Below are positions 6,384-35,658 of a DNA stretch of 64,000 nucleotides, piece after piece. Each line of letters starts with the position of its first letter. Position 1 is the stretch's first letter. The stretch lies in the NCBI GenBank assembly GCA_030424715.1, contig JAUHWH010000001.1, positions 124,001 to 188,000 of the forward strand, in the 5' to 3' direction. This DNA is from Bdellovibrionia bacterium. GTDB lineage: Bacteria; Bdellovibrionota; Bdellovibrionia; Bdellovibrionales; JAGQZY01. The notes under the pieces were generated by a model. It ran no database searches. It saw only the letters and a list, made by a program, of their open reading frames with translations, and was not told where the DNA came from. A program made the translations under genes and the position numbers.

Positions 6384-7733
6384 TCATTGGTCAACGAGCA
6401 AAGAGACTTGGCTGTCATAATCATAACCGGCTTCTTTTAATAAGAAGGTCAACTCGGGTAAGCTCGCTCGCATATCCTGGCGGCGCTCCTCGTCCAAAGT
6501 TTTTGTATAGCTGAGAAAATCACGAATCATCTGCGGGTTCTCTTGCCCGAGAGACATCTGTAACCGCTTTATAGTGCTATCGATACCATTCTTCATAAAA
6601 AAAGACTTTTCTTGTTGAGAACGGTAGACCTGCGACGACATTTTGAAGTCCTCGAGTCGAGCTATCGCCTCGTGCTTGATGTTGTCGGGCAAATGTACGA
6701 TGTCGAGAAAATCAGGATGCAAGCAGAACAAAAAATCCACGATGATTTCTCGACCGGTCTCTTCCATGACTTCTTCAGCGTATTCCAAAAGATCCACCAC
6801 GTTTAGAATATTGTAAATCTGAATCACCGGGCTGATACCCAGCCCGAGCCGCGCTCCGCCTTCATGGGCCATCTTGCGAAAGTTCTTATCAATGACATCC
6901 CAGCGGCTGGGCGCCCGAATATATTCATTCACTTCTCCGTGACCGTCGAGACTCGCATTGACGCTAGACCATTGAAATTCATTAAGCTGTTCAATAAATT
7001 TCTCTTTTAGGTTTGTAAAATTGATATTGAAAAATAACTCGATCTTGTCTGCATAATTCAACTCGCGACAACGATCCAAAAAACGATAATTGCCTTCGAT
7101 TAACGTCGGTTCGCCCCCCGTCATATAAACCTTTTTTAAAAACGGGATATTTTCTTCAACGCCTTTCCAAAAATTCTCACTCTCGTACCATGGAGTGCAA
7201 CTGCCAAACTCCAGACCAAACTTATTCCAAAACTTCGAATAACGATTCTCTGATTTCGCATCGAGCTTCTTCCATTCGTTCTCAATTTGAACACTATTAT
7301 AGGGATTACACATCCTGCATTTTAGATTACACAAATTGCCAAGTCGCAAATCAAGATAGGCAGGAGGTCTATCAACCTCAAAGTCGTTAGCCGTCGACCG
7401 GTCCACCAAACCCTCAATGGTGTCAGAGCCCAGCTTAGCGCTCCACTCCTCGTTGTGACATTGCCGATAGCTCTTTTTTCCAACTTTCTCCTGTTCGTAG
7501 CAGGTTTCGCATCCAAATACGGAATCTCCATGAATCATCTTTTTTCGAATGTCTCGCATATAGCCTGAGTTCCAAGCCTCCTTGAACGAGTCACGATCCA
7601 GCATCATGGCCGATCCATCTTCCCTTGGGACAAAGGTGTGCATTGAAATACAGCAAAAGTTGATTTTGCCAGTGGGCGTCGTCTGCTGCTGAATCCATGG
7701 GTAAACGCAAAATGTTTTCGAATACTCTTTCAT
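6384..7733 (-). CDS. Twitch-type radical SAM protein, last gene of the repeat-protein operon
   Basis: A 449-residue radical SAM enzyme of unknown substrate. The N-terminus carries a cysteine module, TFCVYPWIQ then INFCCIS and FGCETCYEQE, likely holding an auxiliary cluster in a twitch-type fold. The core has the SAM cluster motif CNLKCRMC near residue 140 and TGGEPTLIEG, the SAM-binding GGE strand. The C-terminal 120 residues are helical and acidic. Its ATG lies nine bases after the stop of the upstream paralogue, with TAAGGA as ribosome site. Paralogous to the gene at 7743-9029 by the shared cysteine pattern and the W-N-S-x-x-M-x-x-x-R-x-K-M segment. Radical SAM identity is firm; the reaction is unknown. 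Confidence 0.85.
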   Translation of the reverse strand: MKEYSKTFCVYPWIQQQTTPTGKINFCCISMHTFVPREDGSAMMLDRDSFKEAWNSGYMRDIRKKMIHGDSVFGCETCYEQEKVGKKSYRQCHNEEWSAKLGSDTIEGLVDRSTANDFEVDRPPAYLDLRLGNLCNLKCRMCNPYNSVQIENEWKKLDAKSENRYSKFWNKFGLEFGSCTPWYESENFWKGVEENIPFLKKVYMTGGEPTLIEGNYRFLDRCRELNYADKIELFFNINFTNLKEKFIEQLNEFQWSSVNASLDGHGEVNEYIRAPSRWDVIDKNFRKMAHEGGARLGLGISPVIQIYNILNVVDLLEYAEEVMEETGREIIVDFLFCLHPDFLDIVHLPDNIKHEAIARLEDFKMSSQVYRSQQEKSFFMKNGIDSTIKRLQMSLGQENPQMIRDFLSYTKTLDEERRQDMRASLPELTFLLKEAGYDYDSQVSLLVDQ

Positions 7734-7742
7734 AGGAGTTCC

Positions 7743-9029
7743 TTAAAAACTTAAAACCGACTCACTCAAGTCAGGAAAAACTGCATAAAAATCGGTTCCC
7801 CGAGTCTTGTCCAAGACCCTAACATAGTCTTGAAACTCAGGGATTTTATGGGACCAGTCCTGAGAATTCATAAATTGAACAATACCGTCAAACTTGTCAA
7901 AAGGCTGATCACCAAACTCTTTACGGACTTCGTCCATTGCCTCTTGAACCTGTTCTTTATACTCTTTGGGTAAAACTTTGACGTTCAAATACTCTGGCCA
8001 GTGAACCAAGCCCGGGTGGACGAACGATTGTATGGTTTCAAATTGGATTTGCTTTTTAAACTTCTGATCTCGAACCCATCGCAAAAAGTCTGGCAAATGC
8101 AAAATGTTGAGGGCGTTGACACTGTAAAGAAGTCTGAGCCAAATGTTGTCTCCTAGCTCATCAATTTTTCTAATATTTTTTTCTACTACAGACCACTGTG
8201 CAGGGTAACGCACGTAGTGACCGACATCATCCATTCCGTCGATACTCGAAAAAAACTCAACACGTTCAAACTTCTCCCAATACGGGATCATCTCCTCAGG
8301 GAAAACTGTCATATTGGTGTGATACCTAAGGTGTATATGCCCGGCCTCACCCGACTCCGCACAGTCTCTGATGAAGCGCAGATGCTCTTTGATCAACATC
8401 GGCTCACCTCCGCCAATGATGAGTTCCCGCAACGTTGGTAAAAAACTCTTTAAGTTATCCCAAAATCGTTCGTTTCGATACCATTCGAATTGCTCAACTT
8501 TAATATCATTTTTATAGCGCCACTCGCTTTTTAACGAGCTATTGCGTAATTCACCTAGAAACTTAGCACCGGCTCCTTTCCACTTCGAGCTCTCCCGAGG
8601 CTGACACATCACACACTGTAGGTTGCAGGTGTTGCCCAGACGCAGATCGACGGCAATGATTCCTTGCTCGGTATTTCCATCGACATCCACTCTCTGTATC
8701 AGATCATTGATAACGGACTCACCTAACTTATTCTGCCAGGCCTTATTCTCAATGACTCGATGACTTCGGTACCCGTTGCCTTCTTCTTCGTAACAACGTC
8801 GACATTCATTCACCCTCTCACCGGTCAGCATCTTACGTCTCACGCCTTTCATATGATCGCTGTTCCAGTGATCACCAAGAGTTTGTGAATTCAAGTTCAC
8901 TCCAGAACCGACTTGTTCGGAGACGCAGCACAATGGGAGCTGACCATCAGTCAAAGTGGCCGCATGAATGAACGGAAGAACGCAAAACGTGTCGTTCTGT
9001 TTTATGTCTTCAATGTTCCGACGACTCAA
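7743..9029 (-). CDS. Twitch-type radical SAM protein, fourth gene of the repeat-protein operon
   Basis: A 428-residue radical SAM protein, paralogous to its downstream neighbour. The N-terminal module has TFCVLPFIHAAT, PLCCVSEQ and NECRRCYEEE; the core has CNLQCVMC and IGGGEPMLIK, where the first glycine replaces the more usual threonine. FFSSIDGMDD fits a mid-barrel strand. The start is probably TTG at 9027-9029, inside the end of the upstream glycosyltransferase gene (20-base overlap), with GAGGTG four bases before it; no ATG near the start gives a complete cysteine module. The context (two GT2 enzymes and a repeat protein) suggests work on a glycan or on a peptide scaffold, which is inference only. 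Confidence 0.83.
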   Translation of the reverse strand: MSRRNIEDIKQNDTFCVLPFIHAATLTDGQLPLCCVSEQVGSGVNLNSQTLGDHWNSDHMKGVRRKMLTGERVNECRRCYEEEGNGYRSHRVIENKAWQNKLGESVINDLIQRVDVDGNTEQGIIAVDLRLGNTCNLQCVMCQPRESSKWKGAGAKFLGELRNSSLKSEWRYKNDIKVEQFEWYRNERFWDNLKSFLPTLRELIIGGGEPMLIKEHLRFIRDCAESGEAGHIHLRYHTNMTVFPEEMIPYWEKFERVEFFSSIDGMDDVGHYVRYPAQWSVVEKNIRKIDELGDNIWLRLLYSVNALNILHLPDFLRWVRDQKFKKQIQFETIQSFVHPGLVHWPEYLNVKVLPKEYKEQVQEAMDEVRKEFGDQPFDKFDGIVQFMNSQDWSHKIPEFQDYVRVLDKTRGTDFYAVFPDLSESVLSF

Positions 9030-10713
9030 ATTTCACCTCAGATAGAGTTTTATAGACATTGGGTTTCGACTTCCAAAGAAACTGGAAACTCAAGGTCTCA
9101 CAGAAGCGGCTGAATAGGCGGTAGAGAGTGGGCTCCGGCTCCATGAAGCCAAGCAAGTTCTCAAAAATATCTTCGTCCAAGTGATGCAAATAAAAAATTT
9201 GTGCTGTTCGACTCAAAAGGTTGTGGCGCAAAGACTTCATGTTCATAAATTCAGATCGCGTGTTTTCATGAAACATATGATAGACACGAACAGGCAACAA
9301 ATGAAGTTTATAGCCGCTCTTTACCAATCGATATCCCAGGTCGGTGTCTTCGAAGCCATAAAAAATATAATTTTTCTTTAGCCCCCCGACTTTCCAGAAC
9401 AGATCTTTTCGTAATGAAAAACTATGAGTGCACACATACTTCCAGCTGTAGGGTAACTCATGCCATGCGTCGGTTTTAATGAATTTCTCCCAATAGGGTT
9501 CATCCGGTATGCATTGCTTTGATTCATCAACAGCATCGTACAGAAAGCCCAATGAACTGGCTTGTCGGCTTAGATTAATACGGCGGGCCTGTACAGCGTC
9601 CCAAGTCTTTAAGGCCTCTTCTACCTTTTCAAGATAGCGCGACGGCACGATAATGTCCGAATCGAGAAAACACAGAATGTCGCCCACACTGTTTTTTACG
9701 CCTAAGTTTCGCGAGATCCCTGCTCGATACTGTGAATCGCCCATCACTCGTTGACGCCCTCGTGGAAAAAAAATGTATTTGATATTCATCGTCTCCGGAA
9801 AACTTTCGAGGAGTTCAAGAACTAGGCGTTGAGTTTGATCTGTTCCGCCATCGTCGACAATAATGACCTCAAAAATATCCACACCAACATTCTGGCCGTA
9901 CAAATGCTTGAGAACCACTCGCAAATGGTTTTGATTGTTGTACGTCGGAATAATCACGGAGAAGCGAATTTTCGGATTCCGACTTTGCGCCTCAAAACAA
10001 GGGAGAACAAAGGGCTCCATATCAAAGTCATGTCGAGCCCGACGATCCCACAGGTCAACACCTTTCGGTGGCAGAAAGCTAACTCCTGGAAATTTCTTGC
10101 GAAGCATTCCGACAACTTTGTGACTCTCTTTACAGTTCAAAAAAGGATCTTCAGCATAAAGCTGGTAACTAAAGTACAGATGGATACTTTTGTACTGCCG
10201 TAGAATGGCTGGGATCAAAAGCTCAGTCCAGTTTGTCTGCTTGTGCACAATCACGGACAGATGGGTTTCCTGAAAATGACCCGACAACGTGCTGAGGCGT
10301 TCGATCACACGATTGTCGTTCGAGTCGTGGATCCACTCAACAGTAAGCTCGCCAGACATTTCGGCTAAGCTGGAGAAGAAGACGTTATCAAATAAAAATC
10401 GACTGGGCACCTGCAGTACAACCTTAAAACTCCGCATCACCGCTTGAGTGATAGTCCAGTCGATCATTTCATCACCGACTCGATCGAATGGGATTTTTAT
10501 GTGACTATAACGGCCTTTCTGAGCCTTCAAAAGTGACTCTCTTACCTCAGCTCGGGTTCGGTTTTTGTAATTGTTCGCTCCAAGGGCCGCTGCCTCTGTT
10601 GAGTTAAACAAGCTCTCGTAGAACAATGGAAGGTAGTAGTACTTACAGGAGTCGCTGATGTATGACTTTAGATCTGTACATTCTTGAATCGAGCTATGGC
10701 CGGCACTGGTCAT
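9010..10713 (-). CDS. Two-domain glycosyltransferase: unknown N-domain plus GT2 family catalytic domain
   Basis: A 567-residue protein. Residues 1 to about 245 form an alpha/beta domain of unknown type with no cysteine cluster. From about residue 250 a GT2 fold begins: FSVIIPTYNNQNHLRVVL, then IIVDDGGTDQT (nucleotide-sugar aspartates), ISRNLGV and CFLDSDIIVPS, which holds the DxD metal site. YGFEDTDLGYRL supplies the ED catalytic-base motif and LLPVRVYHMFH a later histidine region. All GT2 residues are present, so it should be active. The ATG immediately follows the TAG of the upstream GT2 gene. The N-domain shares short features (DPF, KKF) with the 5'-most gene of the operon, suggesting common ancestry. 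Donor sugar unknown. Confidence 0.85.
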   Translation of the reverse strand: MTSAGHSSIQECTDLKSYISDSCKYYYLPLFYESLFNSTEAAALGANNYKNRTRAEVRESLLKAQKGRYSHIKIPFDRVGDEMIDWTITQAVMRSFKVVLQVPSRFLFDNVFFSSLAEMSGELTVEWIHDSNDNRVIERLSTLSGHFQETHLSVIVHKQTNWTELLIPAILRQYKSIHLYFSYQLYAEDPFLNCKESHKVVGMLRKKFPGVSFLPPKGVDLWDRRARHDFDMEPFVLPCFEAQSRNPKIRFSVIIPTYNNQNHLRVVLKHLYGQNVGVDIFEVIIVDDGGTDQTQRLVLELLESFPETMNIKYIFFPRGRQRVMGDSQYRAGISRNLGVKNSVGDILCFLDSDIIVPSRYLEKVEEALKTWDAVQARRINLSRQASSLGFLYDAVDESKQCIPDEPYWEKFIKTDAWHELPYSWKYVCTHSFSLRKDLFWKVGGLKKNYIFYGFEDTDLGYRLVKSGYKLHLLPVRVYHMFHENTRSEFMNMKSLRHNLLSRTAQIFYLHHLDEDIFENLLGFMEPEPTLYRLFSRFCETLSFQFLWKSKPNVYKTLSEVKFESSEH

Positions 10714-11631
10714 CTAAAGACTCCGTCGTGCCGCAAACAACTTGTTCACTTTCGAAAATAGCTTTCGCTTTTTCATATCAGGATTTCTAAGGCTATAGTT
10801 GTAAACGAAGTCATAAAGTTCAATACAATGCACCGATTGGTTGAAGTGGGCTTGCGACTGAGCTCGCTCTCTTGCCAAGAGCAATCGCTTACTTTGATAA
10901 GTCTGACTCGACCGGTTTGAATACCCCTCTTCGATTTTGTGTAGACGTCGCCCACGGGCCTGCTGATAGGCTTTGTTCGCAAGCTGCTCTAGAGTCAAAG
11001 AGGTATTATGTAACACTTCTAGGGAGGGCAGATACAAACAAGTCTGTCCCATCTCATGCAACCTGGTGTGGAATTCCGCCTCCGTACCCCCAAATTTAAT
11101 AGACTCATCAAACCAGCGGTCGAGACTTTGCAACATTTCCACCTTATAACTCACATTGCCGCCAACCAACCGGGTCGACTGATATTCGCCAAAAAAGTCG
11201 TGGGACTGCCACTGCCGAGAAATACAATTGTAAGCAAGGTCGCATGGCGAAGCTTTCTCTCGAACTCGATAGGCCCCTCCGATTGCAATTGCCCCTCTAT
11301 GCCTTTGATGAGCATCATAAACGCGAGTCAGGTAGTCACGGCGATCGAGAAAGCAATCGTCATCGAGAAGTAAAAGAACCTCCCCCGACGCTTCAGCGAT
11401 ACCTTTATTTCTTGCCACGTTGACACCCACCGTACCCGACACAACCACCCGGCAGTCAATACCATCAACAGCTTGCAAAAAATTCTCTGATTGAAAGTAG
11501 CGGTCCGGAAGGTTGGGAACCACAATCAGCTCGAAGGCCCCCTCCTCAAAAGACTGCCGCCGGATTGACTGAATCAACTTCTCGAGAAGTTCCGTTCTCT
11601 GGTGAGTCGGGACAACTACAGAAATCTTCAA
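10714..11631 (-). CDS. GT2 family glycosyltransferase
   Basis: A 305-residue single-domain GT2 enzyme. It begins ISVVVPTHQRTELLEKLI, continues with GVNVARNKGI and has LLLLDDDCFLD as the DxD metal-binding site. LVGGNVSYKVEML and FGGTEAEFHTRL match the acceptor loop and the acidic catalytic motif of GT2 enzymes. The last 90 residues are basic and helical. The start is TTG at 11629-11631, overlapping the TGA of the upstream repeat-protein gene as TTGA, with GGGGAG upstream; the protein then opens exactly on the first beta strand. It lies in a five-gene operon. Cytoplasmic, as no membrane helix or signal is visible. Sugar and acceptor are unknown. Confidence 0.87.
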   Translation of the reverse strand: MKISVVVPTHQRTELLEKLIQSIRRQSFEEGAFELIVVPNLPDRYFQSENFLQAVDGIDCRVVVSGTVGVNVARNKGIAEASGEVLLLLDDDCFLDRRDYLTRVYDAHQRHRGAIAIGGAYRVREKASPCDLAYNCISRQWQSHDFFGEYQSTRLVGGNVSYKVEMLQSLDRWFDESIKFGGTEAEFHTRLHEMGQTCLYLPSLEVLHNTSLTLEQLANKAYQQARGRRLHKIEEGYSNRSSQTYQSKRLLLARERAQSQAHFNQSVHCIELYDFVYNYSLRNPDMKKRKLFSKVNKLFAARRSL

Positions 11632-14123
11632 CTCTCACTCCCCGTTGATATCGAAGTCATTTTACGTCGATGCAATCCCAATACCCGTTTTTCATATTGA
11701 TAACTGGAAAAGTAATAGATTTTACGGAAAGGGTAAGAGGCTCTATAGAGCATCAGGACCCCACGATAAGGAACGAGCCTGAATTGATAGTAGAGTCTAT
11801 AAAAAGCATTTTTTAAATGGAAATAAAAAGGTCTCACAAAATGATAGAGGTGGTAGAGGCGAAGCGGACCCACCTTCCAGAGATGAAGTTTCAAAAAATG
11901 CCACAAACGCAAAGGACTCAATTTCCAAAAGTGAGGCTTCACAAAGTGCCAAAGGCGCATGGGGCTTACCTTCCAGAAATGAAGTTTCAAAAAGTGCCAC
12001 AAACGCATAGGATTCAATTTCCAAAAGTGAGGCTTCCCAAAGTGCCAAAAGCGCATGGGACTTACCTTCCAGAGATGAAGTTTCGCGAAATGCCATAAAC
12101 GCACAGGACTGTACTTCCAAAGGTGCAAATTTAACCAATGCTTCAAGCGCACGGGGCTGTATTTCCAAAGGTGCAAATTTAGCCAATGCTTCAAACGCAC
12201 AGGACTGTACTTCCAAAGGTGCAAATTTAGCCAATGCTTCAAACGCACAGGACTGTACTTCCAAAGGTGCAAATTTAGCCAATGCTTCAAACGCACGGGG
12301 CTGTACTTCCAAAGGTGCAAATTTGCCCAATGCTTCAAGCGCACGGGGCTGTATTTCCAAAGGTGCAAATTTGCCCAATGTCTCAAACGCACGGGGCTGT
12401 ATTTCCAAAGGTGCAAATGTAACCAATGCTTCAAGCGCACGGGGTTATACTTCCAAAGATGCAAATTTGCCCAATGTCTCAAGCGCACGGGGCTGTACTT
12501 CCAAAGGTGCAAATTTGCCCAATGCTTCAAGCGCACGGGGCTGTATTTCCAAAGGTGCAAATTTGCCCAATGTCTCAAGCGCATGGGACTTAGTTTCCAA
12601 AGGTGCCTCTTCAAAAAATGTTGCAGCCGAAGAGGGTTCATTTTCCAGGCATTCTGAAGAGTCCAATGCTTTAGCCGATGCCCCCAATACCCTAAAAAGC
12701 GAAAAACTCTCCTGGCAATGGATTTCTCGCTGGCTATACCTAAAATCTCTAGAAAAAATCGACAGATCGCTACCAGGGGTGTCGAGTTGTAAAGGCGAGT
12801 TCCTTCTTCGGCCGCGCCGCCCTCCTCAAAAATGTCTGCTGAATAGAGTTTTATTTTTTGAGCCTCGATACGTCGGTTCGAGTATTCGCTCTGATCAAAT
12901 TTTAAAAAAGTATCATACTGGTCAACCAGTCGATGCGCCAAAATTTCTTTGTCCGACTCAATGGGAACTTTATTAAATGCAAAATTGAGCTCACCAGTCT
13001 CAACATATCGACTCCATTCGATCGAGTCTGTCTTAGCCCCCCAGTTTAGCCTTTGAGCCTCTGGAGATACCAACAATGAGTCGAATCCGGATTGATCCAA
13101 AAACCTCTCTTTGCTGAACACGAATTGCCCCTCTTCAAGCAGCAGTCTTGCGAAGTTACACTTGGGAGCTAAAAGCTTTGTCAGCAGAGCATCCCAGTCA
13201 GAGCTTACACAAAAATCCAGGAAAAATAACACATCTCCGTCAGCTTGGGTTGCACTATAGTTTGCTAAAATCATCGAATTGACTGGCAACTCTTCGTCCA
13301 CTGGGTGGGCCCAGTACTTTGTCATCGTGACCGACTTGATTCGAGGAACCACTTTTGTCTTCACACCAGCCACACGATTGACCAATATTTCAAAGAATTC
13401 GGGATTGGTCTTCATAACTTGTGAATCACAAAGCTCTTTCAACTTTTCTGGGTTCGAAGCGATGATCGAAATCTTCGGCTTTCTATTCGCTAGCTTTCTT
13501 GGTTGAGAGAAGTGTGAAATATTGTGTCGAGCCCACTCATTGTGCAATCCAAGGTTCGGATAGTACGACTTGAGAGTTGTATTAAGAAAATCATTTTCAA
13601 ATTTTTTCTTTACACCTTTAATCTCATCAAGACCGTAGAACGGATCGCCGTGATGGACCGACATGGGAAAATCAACATACAAACGAGATCTCATAAAAGA
13701 GGGAACCGAACGATAACAGTTCTCCATGTTCCAATCTTTTCGCGCCAAAATAACAAACGACAACTGCGATACAAATTCGCGCAAATCATCGACCTTGCAA
13801 ATTAACTCTGGCGATAATGGCTTGTAGATCAACACCGTGAAGTACACACCCTCTTTCAACTGCTGATGAACATCCTCAATCTCGCAAAAGGCTTCGACAT
13901 CCACGATGAACTCTGGTGCCATATTCAAATCAACGGTCTTTCGCTTTAAAGTCGAAAACATCGGCGAATCAATTTGCACCGAATTGTAAACGATTCGCTC
14001 AGCGGCAAAAGCTTTCGCTTTGTCAAAATACCAATTGAGATTCAGCGCCCCATTCACCTGCCATTGCATGCAGATATCGGCCATTGGGGCCACCATTAAT
14101 TTATCGGGGTTATGCACCAACAA
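11628..14123 (-). CDS. Degenerate GT2-like protein with C-terminal WKxxPxR tandem repeats
   Basis: An 831-residue protein of unknown function heading the radical SAM/GT operon. Residues 1-220 resemble, by eye, the N-domain of the 567-residue glycosyltransferase downstream. Residues about 228-440 keep a GT2-like outline (KISIIASNPEKLKELC, then DGDVLFFLDFCVSSDWD), but the DxD site reads DFC, so catalysis is doubtful. Residues 493-764 are 17 tandem 16-residue repeats with consensus WKYSPVRLKHWLNLHL, very basic and rich in Trp, His and Arg. A basic aromatic tail of 67 residues follows. No signal peptide is visible. The start is uncertain: TTG 14123 has AAGGA nine bases upstream, while ATG 14096 has none. 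The downstream GT2 start overlaps the stop. Confidence 0.8.
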   Translation of the reverse strand: MLVHNPDKLMVAPMADICMQWQVNGALNLNWYFDKAKAFAAERIVYNSVQIDSPMFSTLKRKTVDLNMAPEFIVDVEAFCEIEDVHQQLKEGVYFTVLIYKPLSPELICKVDDLREFVSQLSFVILARKDWNMENCYRSVPSFMRSRLYVDFPMSVHHGDPFYGLDEIKGVKKKFENDFLNTTLKSYYPNLGLHNEWARHNISHFSQPRKLANRKPKISIIASNPEKLKELCDSQVMKTNPEFFEILVNRVAGVKTKVVPRIKSVTMTKYWAHPVDEELPVNSMILANYSATQADGDVLFFLDFCVSSDWDALLTKLLAPKCNFARLLLEEGQFVFSKERFLDQSGFDSLLVSPEAQRLNWGAKTDSIEWSRYVETGELNFAFNKVPIESDKEILAHRLVDQYDTFLKFDQSEYSNRRIEAQKIKLYSADIFEEGGAAEEGTRLYNSTPLVAICRFFLEILGIASEKSIARRVFRFLGYWGHRLKHWTLQNAWKMNPLRLQHFLKRHLWKLSPMRLRHWANLHLWKYSPVRLKHWANLHLWKYSPVRLRHWANLHLWKYNPVRLKHWLHLHLWKYSPVRLRHWANLHLWKYSPVRLKHWANLHLWKYSPVRLKHWLNLHLWKYSPVRLKHWLNLHLWKYSPVRLKHWLNLHLWKYSPVRLKHWLNLHLWKYSPVRLWHFAKLHLWKVSPMRFWHFGKPHFWKLNPMRLWHFLKLHFWKVSPMRLWHFVKPHFWKLSPLRLWHFLKLHLWKVGPLRLYHLYHFVRPFYFHLKNAFYRLYYQFRLVPYRGVLMLYRASYPFRKIYYFSSYQYEKRVLGLHRRKMTSISTGSES
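11832..12647 (-). repeat. Seventeen 48-bp coding tandem repeats (16-residue WKxxPxRLxHW units)
   Basis: Seventeen head-to-tail units of exactly 48 bases lie within the 831-residue gene. Units 3-11 are almost identical at DNA level, for example CTTCCAAAGGTGCAAATTT on the plus strand. Units 13-17 are diverged and alternate between KPHFWKL and KLHFWKV types, giving a 96-base higher-order period. Invariant positions in a unit are W1, K2, P5, R7 and H10; position 11 is W or F. Because 48 is a multiple of three, several other frames stay open and produce long artefactual reading frames on both strands. Confidence 0.97.
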
Positions 14124-14243: not shown

Positions 14244-15434
14244 TTAGTGGTCTCTGCAAATCTTGAACAAGCGATCAAGACCCAGGGCAATTCCTGCCGC
14301 CGGAGGCATGCCAGATTCGACACAATCGAAAAACTCTTCATCGAGAGGAGCCGCGGGTGCTCCTTTCCGGTGCCTCATCACTTGTTCTAATCGAAAGCGC
14401 TCGCGGTTTTCAGCAGGGCTGTTCACTTCTAGAAAGGCATTCGCCAGCTCGACTCCACGCCAGTAGAGTTCAAAACGCGAGCTCCACCCCTCGGCATCGA
14501 TTTGAGATAACGAAGCTTGTTGCGGAGGAAAGTGGGTCACGAGCAAAGGCCCATCCGCACCCAAGTTGGGTTCAATGCACTCCATGAAAATTCTAAAAAA
14601 GACATCATTCCAATCGTCGTCGTCAGCCACTTCTATGGACTGCTCTGCAGCCCATAAGCGAAGATCAGCCAAACTCGTGCCCGGCGTGAGCGAAGCGCCA
14701 ATACTTTTTCCAAAGGCGGCTGCAACAGTTGTCACTTTCAGAGGAGGAGCGTCTGGCACCAAATAGTGAATAAGGTTGTTAAGATCATCTTTCAAAGCTC
14801 CAAGCCCTTCGTACGCTCGGTACCACTCCAACATCGTGAACTCAATGCTGTGGTCGGGGCCCGGCAAGTCATCCCGAAAGCACTTTTTAATCTCATAAAT
14901 TCTTTCATAGCCTTGGCACAAATATTTCTTTAAATGGATTTCTGGACTGGTTGGCAAAGTCCAAGTTTGCTTGGTCCCGACGGCCTCCACCCTTAGAAAA
15001 TCAATATGGTGATCCACTCCCGGACACACCACAAGGTAAGGAGTATGAAGGTGTAAGAACCCTTGCTCCTCAAAGAATCTTTCAACTTTCTGCAAAAACC
15101 GAGACCATTCCTCGGGCTCCGGATTAAACCGATAAAAGCTATTGTTTAAATTGGGCGCCAGCAAGAAAAGCCCCCCAGAGTTGCGGTCAAACGCCACATG
15201 GTCGCCAACGACAAAGGCCTCGACAGGAGCCGACACCCCCCAAACCTCGTCTTTTATAAGGCGCACTTCGCGAGTCTCCACAGTCGTTTGCCCCTCTCGG
15301 TTGCGAATACACAGACAGGTTGACTCAACGGCATCGACTCGGCCGCAGAGAAACCTTTCCACGTCTTGGTCACACGACGGGTAAGGAAGCCAGACCTGAG
15401 TGAGAAAATGGTCTCTTACGGAAGGATCTGCCAC
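14244..15434 (-). CDS. epmA: EF-P (R)-beta-lysine ligase, EpmA/GenX-like, with N-terminal extension
   Basis: EpmA attaches (R)-beta-lysine to a conserved lysine of elongation factor P, which helps ribosomes at polyproline stretches. It is a class II lysyl-tRNA synthetase paralogue without the anticodon domain. Here the catalytic domain starts near residue 105 and shows TLPTSPEIHLKKYLCQGY, KKCFRDDLPGPDHSIEFTML (motif 2), NAFLEVN and GIALGLDRLF (motif 3). The 396-residue length exceeds the usual 325 because of about 100 extra N-terminal residues (CGRVDAVESTCLCIRNREG) that could form a small beta barrel. The start is GTG at 15434, inside the end of the DUF4286-like gene. Neither efp nor epmB is in this window. 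Confidence 0.85.
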   Translation of the reverse strand: MADPSVRDHFLTQVWLPYPSCDQDVERFLCGRVDAVESTCLCIRNREGQTTVETREVRLIKDEVWGVSAPVEAFVVGDHVAFDRNSGGLFLLAPNLNNSFYRFNPEPEEWSRFLQKVERFFEEQGFLHLHTPYLVVCPGVDHHIDFLRVEAVGTKQTWTLPTSPEIHLKKYLCQGYERIYEIKKCFRDDLPGPDHSIEFTMLEWYRAYEGLGALKDDLNNLIHYLVPDAPPLKVTTVAAAFGKSIGASLTPGTSLADLRLWAAEQSIEVADDDDWNDVFFRIFMECIEPNLGADGPLLVTHFPPQQASLSQIDAEGWSSRFELYWRGVELANAFLEVNSPAENRERFRLEQVMRHRKGAPAAPLDEEFFDCVESGMPPAAGIALGLDRLFKICRDH

Positions 15435-25609: not shown

Positions 25610-26452
25610 TTATAGATTGGAGTCGTCACCATTGGCAATCTCAAAGGCCGCAGCACTATCGAGGGTGTCGAGAGCACATAGAAAGAACATCGGCACATCT
25701 CCCTTGTTCTTCTCATCCCGCGCCACTTGACTGATCTTACGGAGAGCCGCCCGCTGAATTTTTGTGATTTCTTTATAAGCTTCTGGAGTTATAGACTCGG
25801 AGGCATTAACGAACATTGGATTGAGAGAAGAGCGCCCCTGGGTTTTATTGACTTTTATAAAGCCGGCGGTGGCCCGAAACTGCTCAACAAAGTTCTCAAA
25901 GGAACCCGTAAAGCTCTTGTACTGGGAGAAGTAGCGCCCTCCCTTTTTGTGAATGGCCCCAATATGAACCAAAGCATCGAGCTCCGAAACTCCATGCTCA
26001 CCGAAAAGACTTTTGATTTTCTCACGGCGGACACCTTTTGAGTTCAGACTCAGTTTAAAAATGAGATACTTCAGAGGGTCCTTGAGATGTTGATTGAGAG
26101 CGTGGGAATACTCACTCTCCTGTTCGTCGACCAAAGGTAGAGCGTCGCGAATCATCTCAGCGACAGGGCCGGGGTACAGATCAACAACTTCTTTAATGTT
26201 TTGTTTACGGCTAATCGTAGTGAGGAGATCGAGAACCGTGCTAATGTTCGGCAGGGTTTTTATTTGCTTTTTTGCAATTCTACGAATGGTCGGCTCACTA
26301 ACCTGACACCTTTTACTCAAACCATTCAAGGACATTCTCGGATTTGATTTGAGGTATTCGTTAACGATTTCGCTCAGTTGATCGAGAACTGTGAATTCCG
26401 AGGGCATCGGAATGGTACGAGAATCGGACTCTTTTACAGTCTCACTGTACAT
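25610..26452 (-). CDS. HTH transcriptional regulator, paralogue A of the secreted/HTH cassette
   Basis: A 280-residue protein. Residues about 16-75 form a Cro/C1-type helix-turn-helix domain: MSLNGLSKRCQVSEPTIRRI, with the recognition helix around EPTIRRIAKK. The remaining 200 residues are helical and resemble the regulator at 28095-28940 throughout, for example VVDLYPGPVAEMI and NPMFVNAS against LNPLFVNRS, ending with LCALDTLDSA. The layout recalls TIGR02147/DUF4423 proteins of Bdellovibrio and Fibrobacter; that match was not tested. ATG 26452 is preferred over 26464 because GAGGCG is spaced six bases upstream. It overlaps the end of the secreted-protein gene by 11 bases, so the two are translationally coupled. 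Confidence 0.8.
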   Translation of the reverse strand: MYSETVKESDSRTIPMPSEFTVLDQLSEIVNEYLKSNPRMSLNGLSKRCQVSEPTIRRIAKKQIKTLPNISTVLDLLTTISRKQNIKEVVDLYPGPVAEMIRDALPLVDEQESEYSHALNQHLKDPLKYLIFKLSLNSKGVRREKIKSLFGEHGVSELDALVHIGAIHKKGGRYFSQYKSFTGSFENFVEQFRATAGFIKVNKTQGRSSLNPMFVNASESITPEAYKEITKIQRAALRKISQVARDEKNKGDVPMFFLCALDTLDSAAAFEIANGDDSNL

Positions 26453-27236
26453 TCGGCGCCTCATTTAAACAGAAAAACTCATACCTTTCGGCATTTTGCG
26501 AATCTTTGCTCTTGCGAACAAGCAATTCAAAGGATTCCTGCTGCCAAGAACTCAAAGCCGCGAGTTTCAGAATACCGCCGTTACCACTCCACTCACCCGA
26601 GGCTTTCTGTACCAAATCGTCATAATCAAGTTTGTCACTACACAAGGGAGACTTGAGCTTGGGTTGCTCCCCAAAAGAAGAAAGCGTCTCGTATTTTTTT
26701 AAACTGGAGGGATTAAATTTACCAAAGGGGCTATTCACTATGGTGACGCCACTGTCCACAAGCCCCTTTATAATGGGCCACTCTTCGGGATTGACCTGTC
26801 GTATTCTGCGAACCTTCTCCGGCGGCAAAGCTGTCATCCCCTCACAGATAGGTAAAGGCACTTGTTTTGACATGATAAGATCATAGTTCTTGATCGGTCC
26901 GTCACTGACAAGTTCATAGACCATCAAGTCATAGGTGGTTTTCACGTTGTAAAAATGAGAGACGGCTTCTCCGCTGGGGAGCTCAACCTTCTCAATAAAA
27001 CGAATGGGGGTAATTTTAAGGGATTCTTCACAGTTCCACGACGGGCTTGCGATGTTACAATCGTCAATGCTGTTGAAATAAATGTACCGACCATCCTGAC
27101 ACAAATTCTCGGCAGACGCGTGAATATCTTGGGTTAACCAAAGGTGCTCAATCTGGACAATCTCATCTCCGGCGATGGATGCTCGAGCAACCAGGCTCGA
27201 AACCAATAACATCAAAAGAAGTGCTACAAAACGCAT
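26442..27236 (-). CDS. Secreted protein of cassette A
   Basis: A 264-residue protein with a signal peptide (MRFVALLLMLLVSSLVARA). The mature region has a pair of cysteines in LCQDGRYIYFNSIDDC, a VELPSGEAVSHFYNVKTTYD segment, and late motifs SPFGKFNPSS and ASGEWSGNGGILKLAA, then a C-terminal cysteine. It is a paralogue of the protein at 28970-29800, which has the same order of motifs. Function unknown. The start follows GGGGGGATC. Its stop overlaps the regulator gene start, so the pair are made together. Export to the periplasm or medium is inferred. Confidence 0.78.
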   Translation of the reverse strand: MRFVALLLMLLVSSLVARASIAGDEIVQIEHLWLTQDIHASAENLCQDGRYIYFNSIDDCNIASPSWNCEESLKITPIRFIEKVELPSGEAVSHFYNVKTTYDLMVYELVSDGPIKNYDLIMSKQVPLPICEGMTALPPEKVRRIRQVNPEEWPIIKGLVDSGVTIVNSPFGKFNPSSLKKYETLSSFGEQPKLKSPLCSDKLDYDDLVQKASGEWSGNGGILKLAALSSWQQESFELLVRKSKDSQNAERYEFFCLNEAPNVQ

Positions 27237-28094: not shown

Positions 28095-28940
28095 CTATTC
28101 TTTTGTATTCAGCTCAGCGGCAGATGCTGAGTCAAGGGTGTCGACACCCAAAAGCAAGAACAAGGGGATAGAGCCCTCAGATTCTGCTGCCTCGAGCAAC
28201 CGATTGATCTTGATCAAAGCCTTACGCTGAATTTTCACGACCTTTTCAAAAGTGTCAGCGTTTACGGAGCTAGACCGATTAACGAACAACGGGTTGAGCC
28301 GATCTTTCAATGTAGCAGCATGAGGTTTTATATAGTCTGCAACTAGCTTAAAGTTTCTAACAAAATCGTCGTTCGATAGTTTAAATGTTCTTGCCTTCGT
28401 TCGGTAGACACCGTTTGATTTCACAACAAGTTCATTTTGTAGCATTTCTTCAAGCATCTGTAGACCATGCTGACCAAACATCTCTACCACTTTGCTCTGT
28501 CTAACGCCGGCACTATTAGCCGCCAGTTTGAAAATAAGGTACTTCACCGGATTTTTTAATTCGTAGTTAAGCTCAATAGAGTAGTCCTCATCAAACTCAA
28601 CTAAATAAGGCATTGCCTCTTTTAAATAAGTCGCGATTGGCCCAGGGTAGAGTTCAATAATTTTTTGAACACTTTTCTCCTGACATAGGAACGTGAGGAT
28701 GTCTAAAACAGTCGTCACTTGTGGGAGAGTCTTGATTTTGCGGGACAGGATTCGTCGTAATGTCGGTTCACTCACATTGCATTTACGACTAATGGCATTG
28801 ACACTCAAATGAGGGCGCTTCTTCATGTAGTCGTTTAACCCGCCAATGAGTTGATCAATAACCGTCATCGGTTCATAGTCTTCTTGTTTCAGATTTGAAC
28901 TAACATTAACGTCCAATTCACTTCTCCATCCCTCAAACAT
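28095..28940 (-). CDS. HTH transcriptional regulator, paralogue B of the secreted/HTH cassette
   Basis: This 281-residue regulator is a paralogue of the one at 25610-26452. Its HTH, HLSVNAISRKCNVSEPTLRR, and the later IIELYPGPIATYLKEAMP, LNPLFVNRSSS and LGVDTLDSAS segments align end to end with paralogue A. The C-terminal 200 residues are helical and could bind a peptide or protein ligand, which is inferred from the layout. The start is ATG at 28938-28940, which sits inside a 15-base palindrome; a TTG nine codons in is a possible alternative. The gene follows the secreted gene after 29 bases. Confidence 0.8.
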   Translation of the reverse strand: MFEGWRSELDVNVSSNLKQEDYEPMTVIDQLIGGLNDYMKKRPHLSVNAISRKCNVSEPTLRRILSRKIKTLPQVTTVLDILTFLCQEKSVQKIIELYPGPIATYLKEAMPYLVEFDEDYSIELNYELKNPVKYLIFKLAANSAGVRQSKVVEMFGQHGLQMLEEMLQNELVVKSNGVYRTKARTFKLSNDDFVRNFKLVADYIKPHAATLKDRLNPLFVNRSSSVNADTFEKVVKIQRKALIKINRLLEAAESEGSIPLFLLLGVDTLDSASAAELNTKE

Positions 28941-28945
28941 TGAGG
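28931..28945. promoter_or_regulatory. Palindrome over the start codon of HTH gene B
   Basis: CCTCAA ACA TTGAGG is a perfect 6-3-6 inverted repeat spanning the ATG of the regulator gene. It could act as an operator for autoregulation or as an RNA hairpin that hides the start. No copy of it was seen at the start of paralogue A. Short palindromes occur by chance, so this is a weak call. Confidence 0.3.
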
Positions 28946-28969
28946 AGTCACGAGCCCGTCGGCCATATT

Positions 28970-29800
28970 TTAAATCTCCATATCACAAATCGGAGAGTTT
29001 GATTCTTCAACAAAAAACTCCGGGTTGATTTGTCCAGAGAGGCTTTGCAAATAGTCGGTATTGATTAAGCTCCAACCGTTGCCGCTATTTTCTCCAGAGG
29101 CTTGGGTAACGATCCCATTACCGCTATTTTCACCAGAGGCTTTAAAAACAACGTCTCCACCACCTTGAATTTCACATTGCGGAGAGCGAACGGTCGCTCC
29201 ACGGAAACGCTCTGGCACATTTGAACTTGCCGCGACTTCCGGATCTATGAAATTAAAATCCGTCAGAAGTCCGGCCGGCTGATTAATCAAATGAATACCA
29301 TTACCCACCAATCGATTGAGAAATGGAATCTCTTCATTTCGGGCCGGTCGCTCAGAAATCTCATTCATTGCCAGTAAAACATCATCAGTGCCTAGATCTG
29401 AGCATAGCTCCACTTGCTTAAGGCGGCGGGTCGTATTCTTGATAATTTTGTCTGACTTGTTTGGATAAGCCGTTTCAATGATCTCTTCATACACGATATC
29501 CACGTTGTAAAAACGAACAACCTCTTGCCCATCAAAGTTTATTTTTTCTACTTGTTTGATAGAGCCCAGAATCAGACCCTGGCAACTGATGGGCCGCAAC
29601 TGGCTAAGAACCCCGATTCCAAAGTTATGATCTTCACAACTACTGAGATCTTTAAAAAAAAGAGTGCTCCCGTTGTGACACAATTGATGCCCAGCCACAC
29701 TCAGTTGCTTTCCGATAACCACATGTCCATAGGTCACAGTTGTCTGGGCAAATACCGACTTTGTAACCAGCAAAAAAAGCACAATGCTTATTAATTTCAT
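28970..29800 (-). CDS. Secreted protein of cassette B with repeated ASGENSGNG motif
   Basis: A 276-residue protein with signal peptide MKLISIVLFLLVTKSVFAQ. It matches the cassette A secreted protein in order of features: LCHNGSTLFFKDLSSC, VEKINFDGQEVVRFYNVDIV, GIHLINQPAG, RSPQC and the ASGE segment. Here the last motif is doubled, as KASGENSGNG and QASGENSGNG thirteen residues apart. Function unknown. The start at 29800 follows GGGGGGAAGTCC; a longer frame to 29848 would place 16 residues before the signal peptide. The regulator gene follows 29 bases downstream, and the inverted repeat at 29822-29849 lies just upstream. Confidence 0.78.
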   Translation of the reverse strand: MKLISIVLFLLVTKSVFAQTTVTYGHVVIGKQLSVAGHQLCHNGSTLFFKDLSSCEDHNFGIGVLSQLRPISCQGLILGSIKQVEKINFDGQEVVRFYNVDIVYEEIIETAYPNKSDKIIKNTTRRLKQVELCSDLGTDDVLLAMNEISERPARNEEIPFLNRLVGNGIHLINQPAGLLTDFNFIDPEVAASSNVPERFRGATVRSPQCEIQGGGDVVFKASGENSGNGIVTQASGENSGNGWSLINTDYLQSLSGQINPEFFVEESNSPICDMEI

Positions 29801-29821
29801 GGACTTCCCCCCAAACGACAA

Positions 29822-29849
29822 AATGGGTTTAGCATACGCTAAACCCATT
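29822..29849 (-). terminator. Strong 12-bp hairpin between two secreted-protein genes
   Basis: AATGGGTTTAGC, a four-base loop, then GCTAAACCCATT form a perfect 12-base-pair stem. On the minus strand it is followed by a short T run (ATTTTG). It lies 46 bases after the stop of the gene at 29896-30345 and 20 bases before the start at 29800. It probably terminates the first transcript, or attenuates the second. Confidence 0.6.
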
Positions 29850-31140: not shown

Positions 31141-32484
31141 TTAAAAAAAGGAGGCCTGGAAGTTTTGAGTGTTCGATCGACACATCGCCATGAACCCCCG
31201 ATATTCGGGAAAGGTGTCTTCAAAAGAAGTGTTACGACGACGGTCATACTCGGTGATAAAGCGATCAAAGTCTCGCCTCAGTAGAAAGAGTTTGGCAACA
31301 TTGGTCGCCTTGTTACCAACCAATGGAATCAGGCGACGCACCTTTTGCTCTTCGGCGTCACTAAAGTGCTCAGACTGGGCCATAAATTCAGCTGCCTCGA
31401 TAGCGTACTTTTTAAAGTCTGGAGTCAAAGCCTCTATACTTAAATACTGGGGGTTACGAAGGTAAGGCGTATCGACATTGATGTAATGCTGAGGGAATTC
31501 AATCTTCAACTTTTCAATCTCCTCAAGCAGCTCAGGCAAACCACTAAGACTCAGCAAATTAACCGTTGTCATAAAACCGATCACCAAGGGGGGCTTCACC
31601 AGCTCTAAGATAACACGGAGATTCTCCATAAAGACCTCATAATCAAGACCGTATCGAATGTACTCGGCCTGGGCACCGCAGTTATCGATGCTGGTAAAAA
31701 GGATGACAGAGGCTGTGGAATCCTGCAAACGGTTCAATTTATCAATGAACAGAGACCGCTGCGATTCGCTCAATCCAAGGTTGGTATTGATTCCAAAACG
31801 CAACTTGGGCTTTGGATTGGTAATCAAATCATCCATCAGCTTGTAAGTCTCTTTAGATAAAAGCGGCTCACCACCAGTCACACGAATAAATTCTAGACTG
31901 TCACTCAACTCGGGCCACCAGTCCCAAAAAGCCTTGATGTATTGATCCTTCAACGGCTTCGCGAGAGGCTTATTATACTTTTGGACAAAGTATCGACTGA
32001 CGGTGGGATAATCGCCATGCTCGGCAATCTCTTTTTCCCAGGCCGTTGAATAAAAAGGGCTGCAGTACATGCACTTGAACTGGCACTTATGATCAAACGA
32101 AATCTCCAACATCGAAGGTGCTGTGTTGGGCCCCTCTTGCTCCTTTAAAACTTCGGGTAGATAGTCCATACAAATGGGCTCAGCACTTTTGTGGACACGA
32201 TCACTGTACTCGCCCACATCCTCCACTCGCCAGCAGTACGAGCACTCCGCAGGCCTCTTGCCATTGAGCATTTGCTTTCGAGCCTTCAATTTTTCGGGAG
32301 TGTTATGTAAAGAACTGGGTCTTGTCGGGTCCAATTCCGCCCGATGACTTTTCACATGATGACAGCTTTGGGTATTGCCGTTGTGCAGATGCAGCGTCGC
32401 CGTCTTCCACTTTGCCAAACAAAAACTGCCAGACACCTCGGCGAGCTTTTTCTTGGTTTTTGCCAGTTTATCAAGATTTTCCAT
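31141..32484 (-). CDS. Radical SAM protein with cysteine-rich N-terminal module
   Basis: A 447-residue protein in the same broad family as the 6.4-9.0 kb pair. The N-terminal module has SFCLAKWKTATLHLH, TQSCHHV and ECSYCWRVEDVGEYSDRVHK; the core has CQFKCMYC and VTGGEPLLSK. The later region has LLSLSGLPELLEEIEKLK. CHH replaces the CC pair of the other two, so any auxiliary cluster may differ. The gene after it on the minus strand is absent; it is the last of a two-gene run with its paralogue at 32578 (96-base gap). GAGGAACGCAC precedes its ATG. Substrate unknown. Confidence 0.83.
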   Translation of the reverse strand: MENLDKLAKTKKKLAEVSGSFCLAKWKTATLHLHNGNTQSCHHVKSHRAELDPTRPSSLHNTPEKLKARKQMLNGKRPAECSYCWRVEDVGEYSDRVHKSAEPICMDYLPEVLKEQEGPNTAPSMLEISFDHKCQFKCMYCSPFYSTAWEKEIAEHGDYPTVSRYFVQKYNKPLAKPLKDQYIKAFWDWWPELSDSLEFIRVTGGEPLLSKETYKLMDDLITNPKPKLRFGINTNLGLSESQRSLFIDKLNRLQDSTASVILFTSIDNCGAQAEYIRYGLDYEVFMENLRVILELVKPPLVIGFMTTVNLLSLSGLPELLEEIEKLKIEFPQHYINVDTPYLRNPQYLSIEALTPDFKKYAIEAAEFMAQSEHFSDAEEQKVRRLIPLVGNKATNVAKLFLLRRDFDRFITEYDRRRNTSFEDTFPEYRGFMAMCRSNTQNFQASFF

Positions 32485-32577
32485 GTGCGTTCCTCGGCGG
32501 CAATATAGCGAATTGTCTAAGGAGTTCCAACTGGGTTTTGCCTTTTTTCACGGCTCTTGGCCTCGAACACAAGAGGA

Positions 32578-33981
32578 CTAGATTTCTGCGTGGGTCTTCG
32601 AGCGCGGAACCACGGGCTTTCGAGGAAAGCTGACCTCTATACCCTCGTACCAATCCGCCAAAGAGCCCTCAAAGGTTCTGGCAAAGGACTTGCCCCGCCT
32701 CTTATCATATTGCTCGAAGAACACTTTAAAGTCAGCCTCCTGCTCGACGCGATCTTCAGCCAAAGGATGAGATTTCGAGCCGTGCATAAGGTAGCCAATC
32801 AGCCTCTCGATACTAGAAACCTCCATCTCTCCCAGTCCTCGATCTTTATTATGGGTCAGCCAGTCGTTCAAAGAATCGGCATGACCTTTTCTAAGATCTG
32901 CCGGGAGTGTTAACACAGACATAAATGAGGGAAAACGCAGAATATTTAAGCTGCAGACACCGACATACTTGCCCAGGTCGTTGCGCCACCTGAGAACTTC
33001 CTCAAAAAGATCCGTCAGACGTTCCAAACAAAGCAAGTTGATGGTCATCATGATATGAAGCTGATCAACTTTCCCCTGAGTGAGAAGGTTTTTACAGTTC
33101 TGTACCCAGGCTTTGTAGTTCAAACCATCTCGTATGTATTCGGCATGTGCCCCCGTACTCTCATTGGATGTGTAGACTTCAAAACTCTCCAAGCTGTGAC
33201 TCTGATCAATCAGCTTCTTAATCAATTTATTGGGCGCCCCTAAGTTGGAATTGATGGCAAAACGGATGTGACGGTTTCGTGGTTTCTTTAGTTCATCGAA
33301 GAGCCTCCACACGTCTCGCGACATGAGAGGTTCACCACCCGTGATACGAAGCTCAGTGAGATCTTGAGAAAGACTCGGCCACCAACGCCAGAAGGCGTGG
33401 ATAAAAGGATTCTGCTCCTCATGCTCGTACTGTCCGGTTTTCCCTTCTTTCGCGTAAGTCAGAGCATCATGAGTTCCCAGGTTGCGGTACTCGCCATGCT
33501 CGTTGATGTCCTTGAGCCAAGTCGTGGAAAAATCGACGTTGCAATAAGCACAAGCGAAATTACAGGTCCGAGAAAACGAAAGTTCTAAGGTTCTTGGATT
33601 GACGTGTTTTTTCGGTGAAGCACTGGCAATCTCTTGAATCTCTTTGTCTGGGTAAATCACAGATTTATGAACACGATCAGAAATGATTTCAGGCCCCATG
33701 TCCTCCATGCTCCAACAGTAATTGCATCCCGAGGGGCGTTCACCGGCGAGCATCTGCCTGCGCTGCTCCTTTTTCTGACGGGTGTTGTGGAGAGCCGACG
33801 GATTCATGAGAATACGAAAGCGATTGATCGGGTGAGCCACCGGATGATGGCAACTCATGGTCGTCCCCTGATTCAAAAAAATCGTGGCGTTTTTCCATTT
33901 TGCGGCACAAAAAGAGCTCGAAACGGGGTCCAAAACCCGCTTTTTGTACTCTTGGTAAGTTTCACCCTCTTTTTTGAACAT
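32578..33981 (-). CDS. Radical SAM protein, paralogue of the 31.1 kb gene
   Basis: A 467-residue protein closely paralogous to its downstream neighbour: SSFCAAKWKNATIFLN, SCHHPVAHP, GCNYCWSMEDMG, ISDRVHKS, core cluster CNFACAYC, ITGGEPLMSR, and the shared ending with KSFARTFEGSLADW. The two probably arose by tandem duplication. The start is uncertain: ATG 33981, or GTG 34002 seven codons earlier; neither has a strong ribosome site. The 371 bases upstream hold two structured repeats and then a tRNA gene. Enzyme class is firm, reaction unknown. Confidence 0.82.
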   Translation of the reverse strand: MFKKEGETYQEYKKRVLDPVSSSFCAAKWKNATIFLNQGTTMSCHHPVAHPINRFRILMNPSALHNTRQKKEQRRQMLAGERPSGCNYCWSMEDMGPEIISDRVHKSVIYPDKEIQEIASASPKKHVNPRTLELSFSRTCNFACAYCNVDFSTTWLKDINEHGEYRNLGTHDALTYAKEGKTGQYEHEEQNPFIHAFWRWWPSLSQDLTELRITGGEPLMSRDVWRLFDELKKPRNRHIRFAINSNLGAPNKLIKKLIDQSHSLESFEVYTSNESTGAHAEYIRDGLNYKAWVQNCKNLLTQGKVDQLHIMMTINLLCLERLTDLFEEVLRWRNDLGKYVGVCSLNILRFPSFMSVLTLPADLRKGHADSLNDWLTHNKDRGLGEMEVSSIERLIGYLMHGSKSHPLAEDRVEQEADFKVFFEQYDKRRGKSFARTFEGSLADWYEGIEVSFPRKPVVPRSKTHAEI

Positions 33982-34105
33982 GGCCCTGGGTAACACTGAC
34001 ACCCAAAAAAATCACGGGTAAAGGGGCCTCTTTGTCCAAAAACTGGGGAATCAATCCGGTATACTGTCTACTGTGAACGGTTAACTGTATTCGGTATTGT
34101 TAAAT

Positions 34106-35577: not shown

Positions 35578-35658
35578 ATCTGACCCACTCTTCAATTTGC
35601 AAATCTAGGGTCTGGCCCCTACCGCCCGTAGCCTTCGTCAACAAAGCGTATTAAAGCT

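Follow-up and report, generated by a model that had tools for sequence, protein, structure and literature searches.

A five-gene operon in a Bdellovibrionia bacterium (assembly GCA_030424715.1) points to an undescribed route for building a cell-surface sugar chain and altering it chemically. The operon occupies positions 6,384 to 14,123 of a 64,000-nucleotide stretch of contig JAUHWH010000001.1 (positions 124,001 to 188,000), hereafter the window, whose numbering is used below, and encodes two glycosyltransferases (GTlong and GTshort), two radical S-adenosylmethionine (SAM) enzymes (rSAM-A and rSAM-B) and a protein, gene 5, that ends in a tandem-repeat tail. GTlong and gene 5 each begin with a radical SAM domain devoid of its cluster-binding cysteines; relatives carry the same domain fused to a family 2 glycosyltransferase (GT2) domain, with the cysteine motif present in some and absent from others. 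Our preferred interpretation, to which we give about an even chance of being correct, is that the five proteins assemble a glycan as a cytoplasmic complex associated with the membrane, with radical modification taking place in trans and gene 5 serving as the scaffold.

A five-gene operon conserved in two species

That the five genes form one operon had been proposed in a first-pass annotation of the window and holds: all five open reading frames (ORFs) were confirmed on the minus strand, and their order recurs in a second species. From 5' to 3', gene 5 and GTshort overlap by 4 bases (11628-11631), GTshort and GTlong abut exactly (10714 and 10713), GTlong and rSAM-B overlap by 20 bases (9010-9029), and rSAM-B and rSAM-A are separated by a 9-base gap; the annotation had given both overlaps and the gap correctly but had not listed the abutment. 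The stretch sits within a 3.13-Mb genome, and a promoter and terminator scan of the operon returned consensus matches at the level of shuffled sequence, with no clear signal. Its features are as follows.

11628..14123, minus strand: gene 5 (831 amino acids), opening the operon; comprises a degenerate radical SAM domain, a GT2 region that is likely degenerate and a basic/aromatic repeat tail
13509..14123, minus strand: gene 5 N-terminal domain (residues 1-205), homologue of the GTlong N-terminal domain and of radical SAM domains
12729..13505, minus strand: gene 5 middle region (residues 207-465), probably a degenerate GT2 domain without DXD (weak hhalign)
11823..12638, minus strand: gene 5 16-residue repeat, 17 units (residues 496-767), consensus SPVRLKHWANLHLWKY
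11673..11726, minus strand: conserved C-terminal motif of the gene 5 tail, RKIYYFSSYQYEKRVLGL
10714..11631, minus strand: GTshort (305 amino acids), GT2 glycosyltransferase, DDD-type motif intact (PF00535, E 2e-17)
9010..10713, minus strand: GTlong (567 amino acids), degenerate radical SAM domain fused to GT2 and Glyco_transf_7C (PF00535, E 7e-21; PF02709, E 3e-8; family alignment)
9979..10713, minus strand: GTlong N-terminal domain (residues 1-245), degenerate radical SAM domain
9184..9969, minus strand: GTlong GT2 domain, conserved GDSQYRAGISRNLG, LDSDI and YGFEDTDLG motifs
7743..9029, minus strand: rSAM-B (428 amino acids), N-terminal twitch/SPASM-like domain and radical SAM core, cluster cysteines intact (NF033640, 382 bits; ortholog clade)
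6384..7733, minus strand: rSAM-A (449 amino acids), architecture as rSAM-B (NF033640, 359 bits; ortholog clade)

The recurrence of the whole set, which the annotation had put forward as a check, was found in G001, a second species of the genus (genomes are labelled G and loci L; f10 is a family and g14 a genus within it). Locus L035 of that genome carries all five, their order unchanged and the same EpmA-like gene preceding them, which is more than chance would give. Amino acid identities between the two species are 64% for rSAM-A, 63% for rSAM-B, 51% for GTlong, 35% for GTshort and 22% for gene 5. The G001 gene 5 (517 amino acids) has no 16-residue repeats and almost no tail, whereas its N-terminal part is preserved, as is the C-terminal motif KIYYFTKYQYEKRVLG; the operon is thus conserved and the repeats are not. 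Outside the order, the succession of gene 5-like protein, GTshort and GTlong recurs in G212, and gene 5-like proteins adjoin GTshort and GTlong also in G238, G002 and family f10. In both species of the genus an EpmA/GenX-like lysyl-tRNA synthetase paralogue (14244-15434 in the window) immediately precedes the operon, across a gap of ~100-120 bases.

Degenerate radical SAM domains fused to glycosyltransferases

Profile comparisons identify GTlong and gene 5 as paralogous multidomain proteins that both start with a degenerate radical SAM domain. Their N-terminal domains (N-domains) align with hhalign 98% (E 3e-13), and with 97% when only sequences from the study species and G001 are used. The first-pass annotation had missed this paralogy, the degenerate radical SAM domain ahead of each GT2 region, and similar fusions across the phylum and in an archaeon. 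Of 369 genomes of the phylum, 31 carry the GTlong-type N-domain (first ~245 residues), spread over 20 of 182 genera; it mostly precedes a GT2 domain, and no Pfam, NCBIfam, PHROG or PDB model matches it in the bacterial proteins. A CxxxCxxC motif falls within the first 90 residues of 12 of 37 N-domain proteins, in one alignment column, where shuffles lead to an expectation of 0.07; gene 5-like proteins that retain it include L064:6263-7414 and L060:10734-13079, and intact fusions are present at L063, L185 and L197. This cluster-ligand motif is absent from both GTlong and gene 5. GTlong has SLFNSTEAAALG at the position of the relatives' CxxxCxxC and IKIPFDR at that of their PCN, the motif that replaces GGE in this subfamily (IIFPCNSEIRKDF; LIPCNALDSQDL), and in the gene 5 N-domain both CxxxCxxC and the PCN/GGE-equivalent motif are lost (the PCN-equivalent site reads IKIPFDRVGDEM in GTlong and IVYNSVQIDSP in gene 5). 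Both N-domains are pseudo-radical-SAM domains.

The assignment to radical SAM comes from a fusion protein at L072 (7328-10834; Woesearchaeota, JAFGRO010000021.1), the one archaeal locus sampled among the matches listed from a contig scan. This 1168-residue chain carries both a Pfam Radical_SAM domain (E 1.6e-24, residues 373-507, the same residues being matched by NCBIfam radical SAM models) and a GT2 domain (E 1.4e-25), together with a fused GT28-like (GT28C-like) domain. The bacterial N-domain hidden Markov model matches the L072 radical SAM domain end to end (residues 367 to 586-598, E 1e-21), and with the cysteine motif masked the comparison still yields hhalign 97-98%, against controls at <=1%. 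Purely degenerate profiles also align with the L072 radical SAM domains, at 98% for the GTlong type and 90-93% for the gene 5 type. The L072 fusion is a Rosetta-stone link between radical SAM and sugar transfer. Homology drawn from Bdellovibrionota profiles alone (hhalign 36-55%, at most 8% after masking) was set aside because it was carried mostly by the cysteine motif, and was not accepted by itself. The L072 locus contains seven or more radical SAM genes, among them the GT28C-radical SAM-radical SAM-GT2 fusion and a DUF362-ferredoxin-double radical SAM fusion, as well as PMT_2 and carbamoyltransferase genes. The literature searched held nothing on NF033640, the family of rSAM-A and rSAM-B, or on radical SAM-GT2 fusions of this kind.

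On the GT2-domain tree, the cysteine motif changes state seven times, at least three of these changes being forced by well-supported branches, a pattern that reads most simply as repeated loss; one row labelled motif-lost, L200, may be truncated, being close to a contig end. Separately, one protein (L070:5341-9396, 1351 amino acids) appears as two tandem units of radical SAM-like domain and GT2 followed by a basic/aromatic tail, an arrangement consistent with the origin of GTlong and gene 5 by duplication.

Glycosyltransferases and their glycan context

GTlong and GTshort, proposed at first pass as two GT2 enzymes, score 75.3 and 63.9 bits on the Pfam GT2 model, both above its gathering score of 23.3. 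The catalytic motifs LDSDI and YGFEDTDLG of GTlong are conserved in the family alignment, and the DDD motif of GTshort was read directly from its sequence. Among solved structures, the best relatives of the GTlong GT2 domain are GT2 enzymes such as chondroitin synthase (2z86/2z87, E 3e-27). GTshort lies within ~5 kb of GTlong at 24 of the 34 loci examined. Elsewhere, GTlong has as neighbours GT39-like PMT_2 membrane proteins (L060, L072), an NAD-sugar epimerase (L201) and O-carbamoyltransferases (L201, L072), the last of these appearing in a glycan context at L201, L209, L211 and L072 overall. The glycan-related role suggested by the annotation is supported, with a glycan as the probable product. 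The GT2 search also matched a Bdellovibrio metagenome-assembled genome (L071); among phages and plasmids the only matches were to distant radical SAM or generic GT2 proteins, and a scan of viral contigs gave only three distant matches.

A mobile basic and aromatic tail

The tandem array that had marked gene 5 as a repeat protein is real: it has a 48-bp period and ~10.6 clean copies (15 including diverged ones) at 11874-12606, encoding a 16-residue unit, SPVRLKHWANLHLWKY. Differences between units are mostly synonymous (rough proportions of synonymous and nonsynonymous differences, 0.59 and 0.056), indicating that the array grew by duplication while its protein sequence was maintained. The whole tail spans 366 residues with a net charge of +67 and 32% aromatic residues including His. 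A single-sequence AlphaFold model places one 12-14-residue helix in each 16-residue unit (predicted local distance difference test, pLDDT, ~65) with no reliable packing (predicted template modelling score, pTM, 0.21).

Tails, defined as at least 90 residues rich in W/Y/F/H and K/R and poor in acidic residues, were sought in ORFs of at least 150 residues around GTlong and at the other fetched loci, near-duplicate loci being left out. Twenty ORFs bear one, and 18 of them are gene 5, GTlong or GTshort (odds ratio 94, P = 3e-16), the carrier varying by genome. A RKIYYFSSYQYEKRVLGL-type C-terminal motif ends the tails of gene 5 or GTlong relatives in G001, L064, L066, L070, L192 and L193. The 16-residue repeats are one species' form of a rapidly changing basic/aromatic helical tail, and its composition and mobility between proteins fit a putative membrane-interface tether. 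A simple amphipathic-helix reading of the tail finds no general support, prominent hydrophobic-moment peaks at 100 degrees being confined to L186 and L069.

Coiled-coil or helix rulers exist in some lipopolysaccharide and N-glycan systems, and the tail might instead be a molecular ruler for glycan chain length. The recent duplication of units with mostly synonymous differences, the regular series of short helices and the length variation between relatives would suit a ruler; the tertiary arrangement, however, carries no structural confidence, the aromatic and charged composition suits a membrane interface, and G001 is almost tail-less, and we regard this explanation as distinctly unlikely.

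Another reading would make the repeat protein the substrate of the radical SAM enzymes, for example through a Trp-Asn crosslink in W-x-N (cyclophane/triceptide-like), or have the glycosyltransferases glycosylate the repeats; the annotation, too, had considered the repeat protein as a decorated substrate. Some radical SAM/SPASM families are peptide maturases, the gene 5 tail contains nine W-x-N triplets, and the genes share one operon. Yet the G001 operon has no repeats although its GTlong and radical SAM enzymes are 51-64% identical (rSAM-A and rSAM-B, 63-64%), which makes the repeats an unlikely enzyme substrate, and the tails of nine other systems contain one W-x-N triplet or none. Tails elsewhere sit on the glycosyltransferases themselves, and rSAM-A and rSAM-B reach at most ~23 bits on peptide-maturase models, far below the cut-offs. 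The W-x-N cyclophane was rejected on the absence of repeats in G001 and the lack of W-x-N conservation, the same two results by which a test for a ribosomally synthesized and post-translationally modified peptide system found no conserved precursor repeats. Modification of the repeats in any form seems to us very improbable, and the annotation's decorated-substrate idea is not supported.

Stand-alone radical SAM enzymes and the proposed complex

As first proposed, rSAM-A and rSAM-B are twitch-type radical SAM enzymes: they match NF033640 (N_Twi_rSAM) over their full length with 359.4 and 382.1 bits, respectively, against a curated cut-off of 170. In the family alignment C16, C76, C79, C135, C139, C142 and G207-G208-E209 are invariant and C35 nearly so, and both enzymes have all of the CxxxCxxC, GGE and N-terminal auxiliary-cluster cysteine motifs. 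Each forms one ortholog clade, found only in GTlong-bearing genomes. The wider family is abundant in the phylum, with up to 16 or more members per genome; its model title gives no function, and no paper naming the family or its substrate appeared in the literature searched. N_Twi_rSAM genes lie <= ~10 kb from GTlong at 11 of 34 loci in four families, many contigs being shorter than that span. At the genome level, 20 genomes have both the N-domain and an N_Twi_rSAM protein over the cut-off, 3 and 10 have only one of them and 66 neither (P = 8e-11, uncorrected for phylogeny).

Under the proposed mechanism, GTlong and GTshort would add sugars to a carrier, probably a lipid, at the inner membrane face, so extending a surface glycan. 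The ancestral GTlong-type proteins would have been radical SAM-GT2 fusions. The fused domains of GTlong and gene 5 would have lost their iron-sulfur cysteines in the study genus, and rSAM-A and rSAM-B would act in trans, carrying out the radical chemistry on the glycan or its sugar. With both activities lost, gene 5 may act as a scaffold that organises the complex, which its tail of short helices, rapidly evolving in length, would anchor at the membrane surface.

Several results, beside the uncorrected phylogeny, weigh against this mechanism. Family f10 carries its rSAM-A/B pair far from the glycosyltransferase cluster, the neighbours there being a cysteine-desulfurase-like aminotransferase, a GDSL-type protein and a carbamoyltransferase, so that a shared substrate need not be assumed. 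Of the 20 genomes that combine N_Twi_rSAM with the N-domain, seven retain the fused motif intact, and replacement in trans is therefore not a clean rule. The operon itself contains no lipid carrier, flippase or polymerase gene, and AlphaFold2 gave no usable model of GTlong from a 3-row alignment (pLDDT 34). Gene 5 has no Pfam or NCBIfam match, and its middle region resembles GT2 weakly (hhalign 22% with GTshort and 7.5% with the GTlong GT2 domain) and has no DXD. A 90% hhalign link of this region to GT2 was not used, as residues of gene 5 were present in both alignments; the clean test reached at most 22%. In family f10, the proteins corresponding to gene 5 carry a clear-cut GT2 domain there (98.8%). 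An inactive GT2 domain in gene 5 is plausible. The annotation's view of gene 5 as an inactive GT2 scaffold is thus upheld in its non-catalytic role; the GT2 identity stays plausible on weak homology.

We also asked whether an intact fused motif is confined to genomes without N_Twi_rSAM. G027, G030 and G039, which have none over the cut-off, all keep the motif, and the comparison (3 of 3 versus 7 of 20 genomes; hypergeometric P ~0.07, hand count) is not significant; the idea was dropped.

The f10 arrangement also bears on whether rSAM-A and rSAM-B form a separate two-enzyme pathway, for example for a cofactor or another cell-envelope part, merely co-expressed with the glycan genes. In genus g14 the pair stands together at another locus than the glycosyltransferase cluster, beside an aminotransferase and a third radical SAM gene, with a carbamoyltransferase adjacent in two species, and N_Twi_rSAM genes form large arrays without GTlong in the study genome and others. 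Such a pathway sits less easily with the restriction of rSAM-A/B orthologues to GTlong-bearing genomes, with the other N_Twi_rSAM genes beside GTlong in several families, and with the joining of radical SAM and GT2 in one polypeptide in relatives and an archaeon; we consider it somewhat unlikely.

Other radical SAM genes and neighbours

One of these arrays, L036/L037 (G000 C15:632000-670000), spans both strands; beside N_Twi_rSAM genes it contains further radical SAM genes and, recognised by eye, SDR-like, oxygenase-like and HTTM-like membrane genes. Similar arrays occur in G011, G098, G081 and G093. Within the window, at a position unrelated to the operon, two further tandem N_Twi_rSAM genes (31141-34002 and 34558-35595), related to genes in G011 and others, are followed by another radical SAM-like gene. 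A small protein starting with ISYDEPNAEENW or a similar motif recurs near N_Twi_rSAM genes in several genomes (L197:4123-4959, L198:14930-15889, L191:16772-17455 and L036:15211-15921), and its L197 copy has no Pfam match. At 25610-27236 and 28095-29848 the window also contains two paralogous near-tandem gene pairs, each comprising a helix-turn-helix-type and a secreted protein by eye.

Implications and comparison with known systems

More broadly, we tentatively propose, at somewhat less than even confidence, a new family of radical SAM-glycosyltransferase fusion enzymes in Bdellovibrionota and at least one archaeal lineage that would make radical-modified surface glycans. In the study genus the fused domains would have become pseudoenzymes, stand-alone twitch enzymes would have taken over, and a doubly dead paralogue with an expanding membrane-binding repeat tail would hold them together. 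The operon gives NF033640 members a conserved partner set, and their tie to a defined set of glycosyltransferases and to fusions makes surface or lipid-linked glycans a candidate substrate class. The operon also offers a case of catalytic-domain loss set against relatives that retain the motif, and of a scaffold paralogue in which both enzyme domains are apparently dead. As a general point, the envelopes of this bacterial group are relevant to predator-prey recognition and self-protection.

Among known families, NF033640 shares a full-length match and the cysteines with rSAM-A and rSAM-B. The hopanoid cyclitol-ether pathway HpnI/HpnK/HpnJ likewise combines GT2 and radical SAM and provides a precedent, in that HpnI and HpnJ, a glycosyltransferase and a radical SAM enzyme, are described as working successively on a single lipid-linked sugar (PMC12583986, citing Schmerk et al. 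2015). The operon differs in that GTlong scores 18.2 bits on the HpnI model against a cut-off of 310, in the deacetylase, which it lacks, and in the fused radical SAM domain, which the hopanoid system lacks. Mycofactocin MftC/MftF also pairs a radical SAM enzyme with a GT2 enzyme, but the scores (52.5 versus 280 on the MftF model, 21 versus 265 on the MftC model) bear out the annotation's remark that no sequence link to mycofactocin exists, and no precursor peptide was seen. Unlike chondroitin synthase (2z86/2z87), GTlong has one GT2 domain and an N-terminal radical SAM-derived domain. The L072 fusion differs from GTlong in its intact radical SAM domain, a second radical SAM domain and an added GT28C-like domain, with no basic/aromatic tail noted; it is like GTlong in joining, within one polypeptide, a radical SAM domain of the same subfamily (PCN for GGE) to a GT2 domain 32% identical to GTlong's, in a cluster with PMT_2 and carbamoyltransferase genes.

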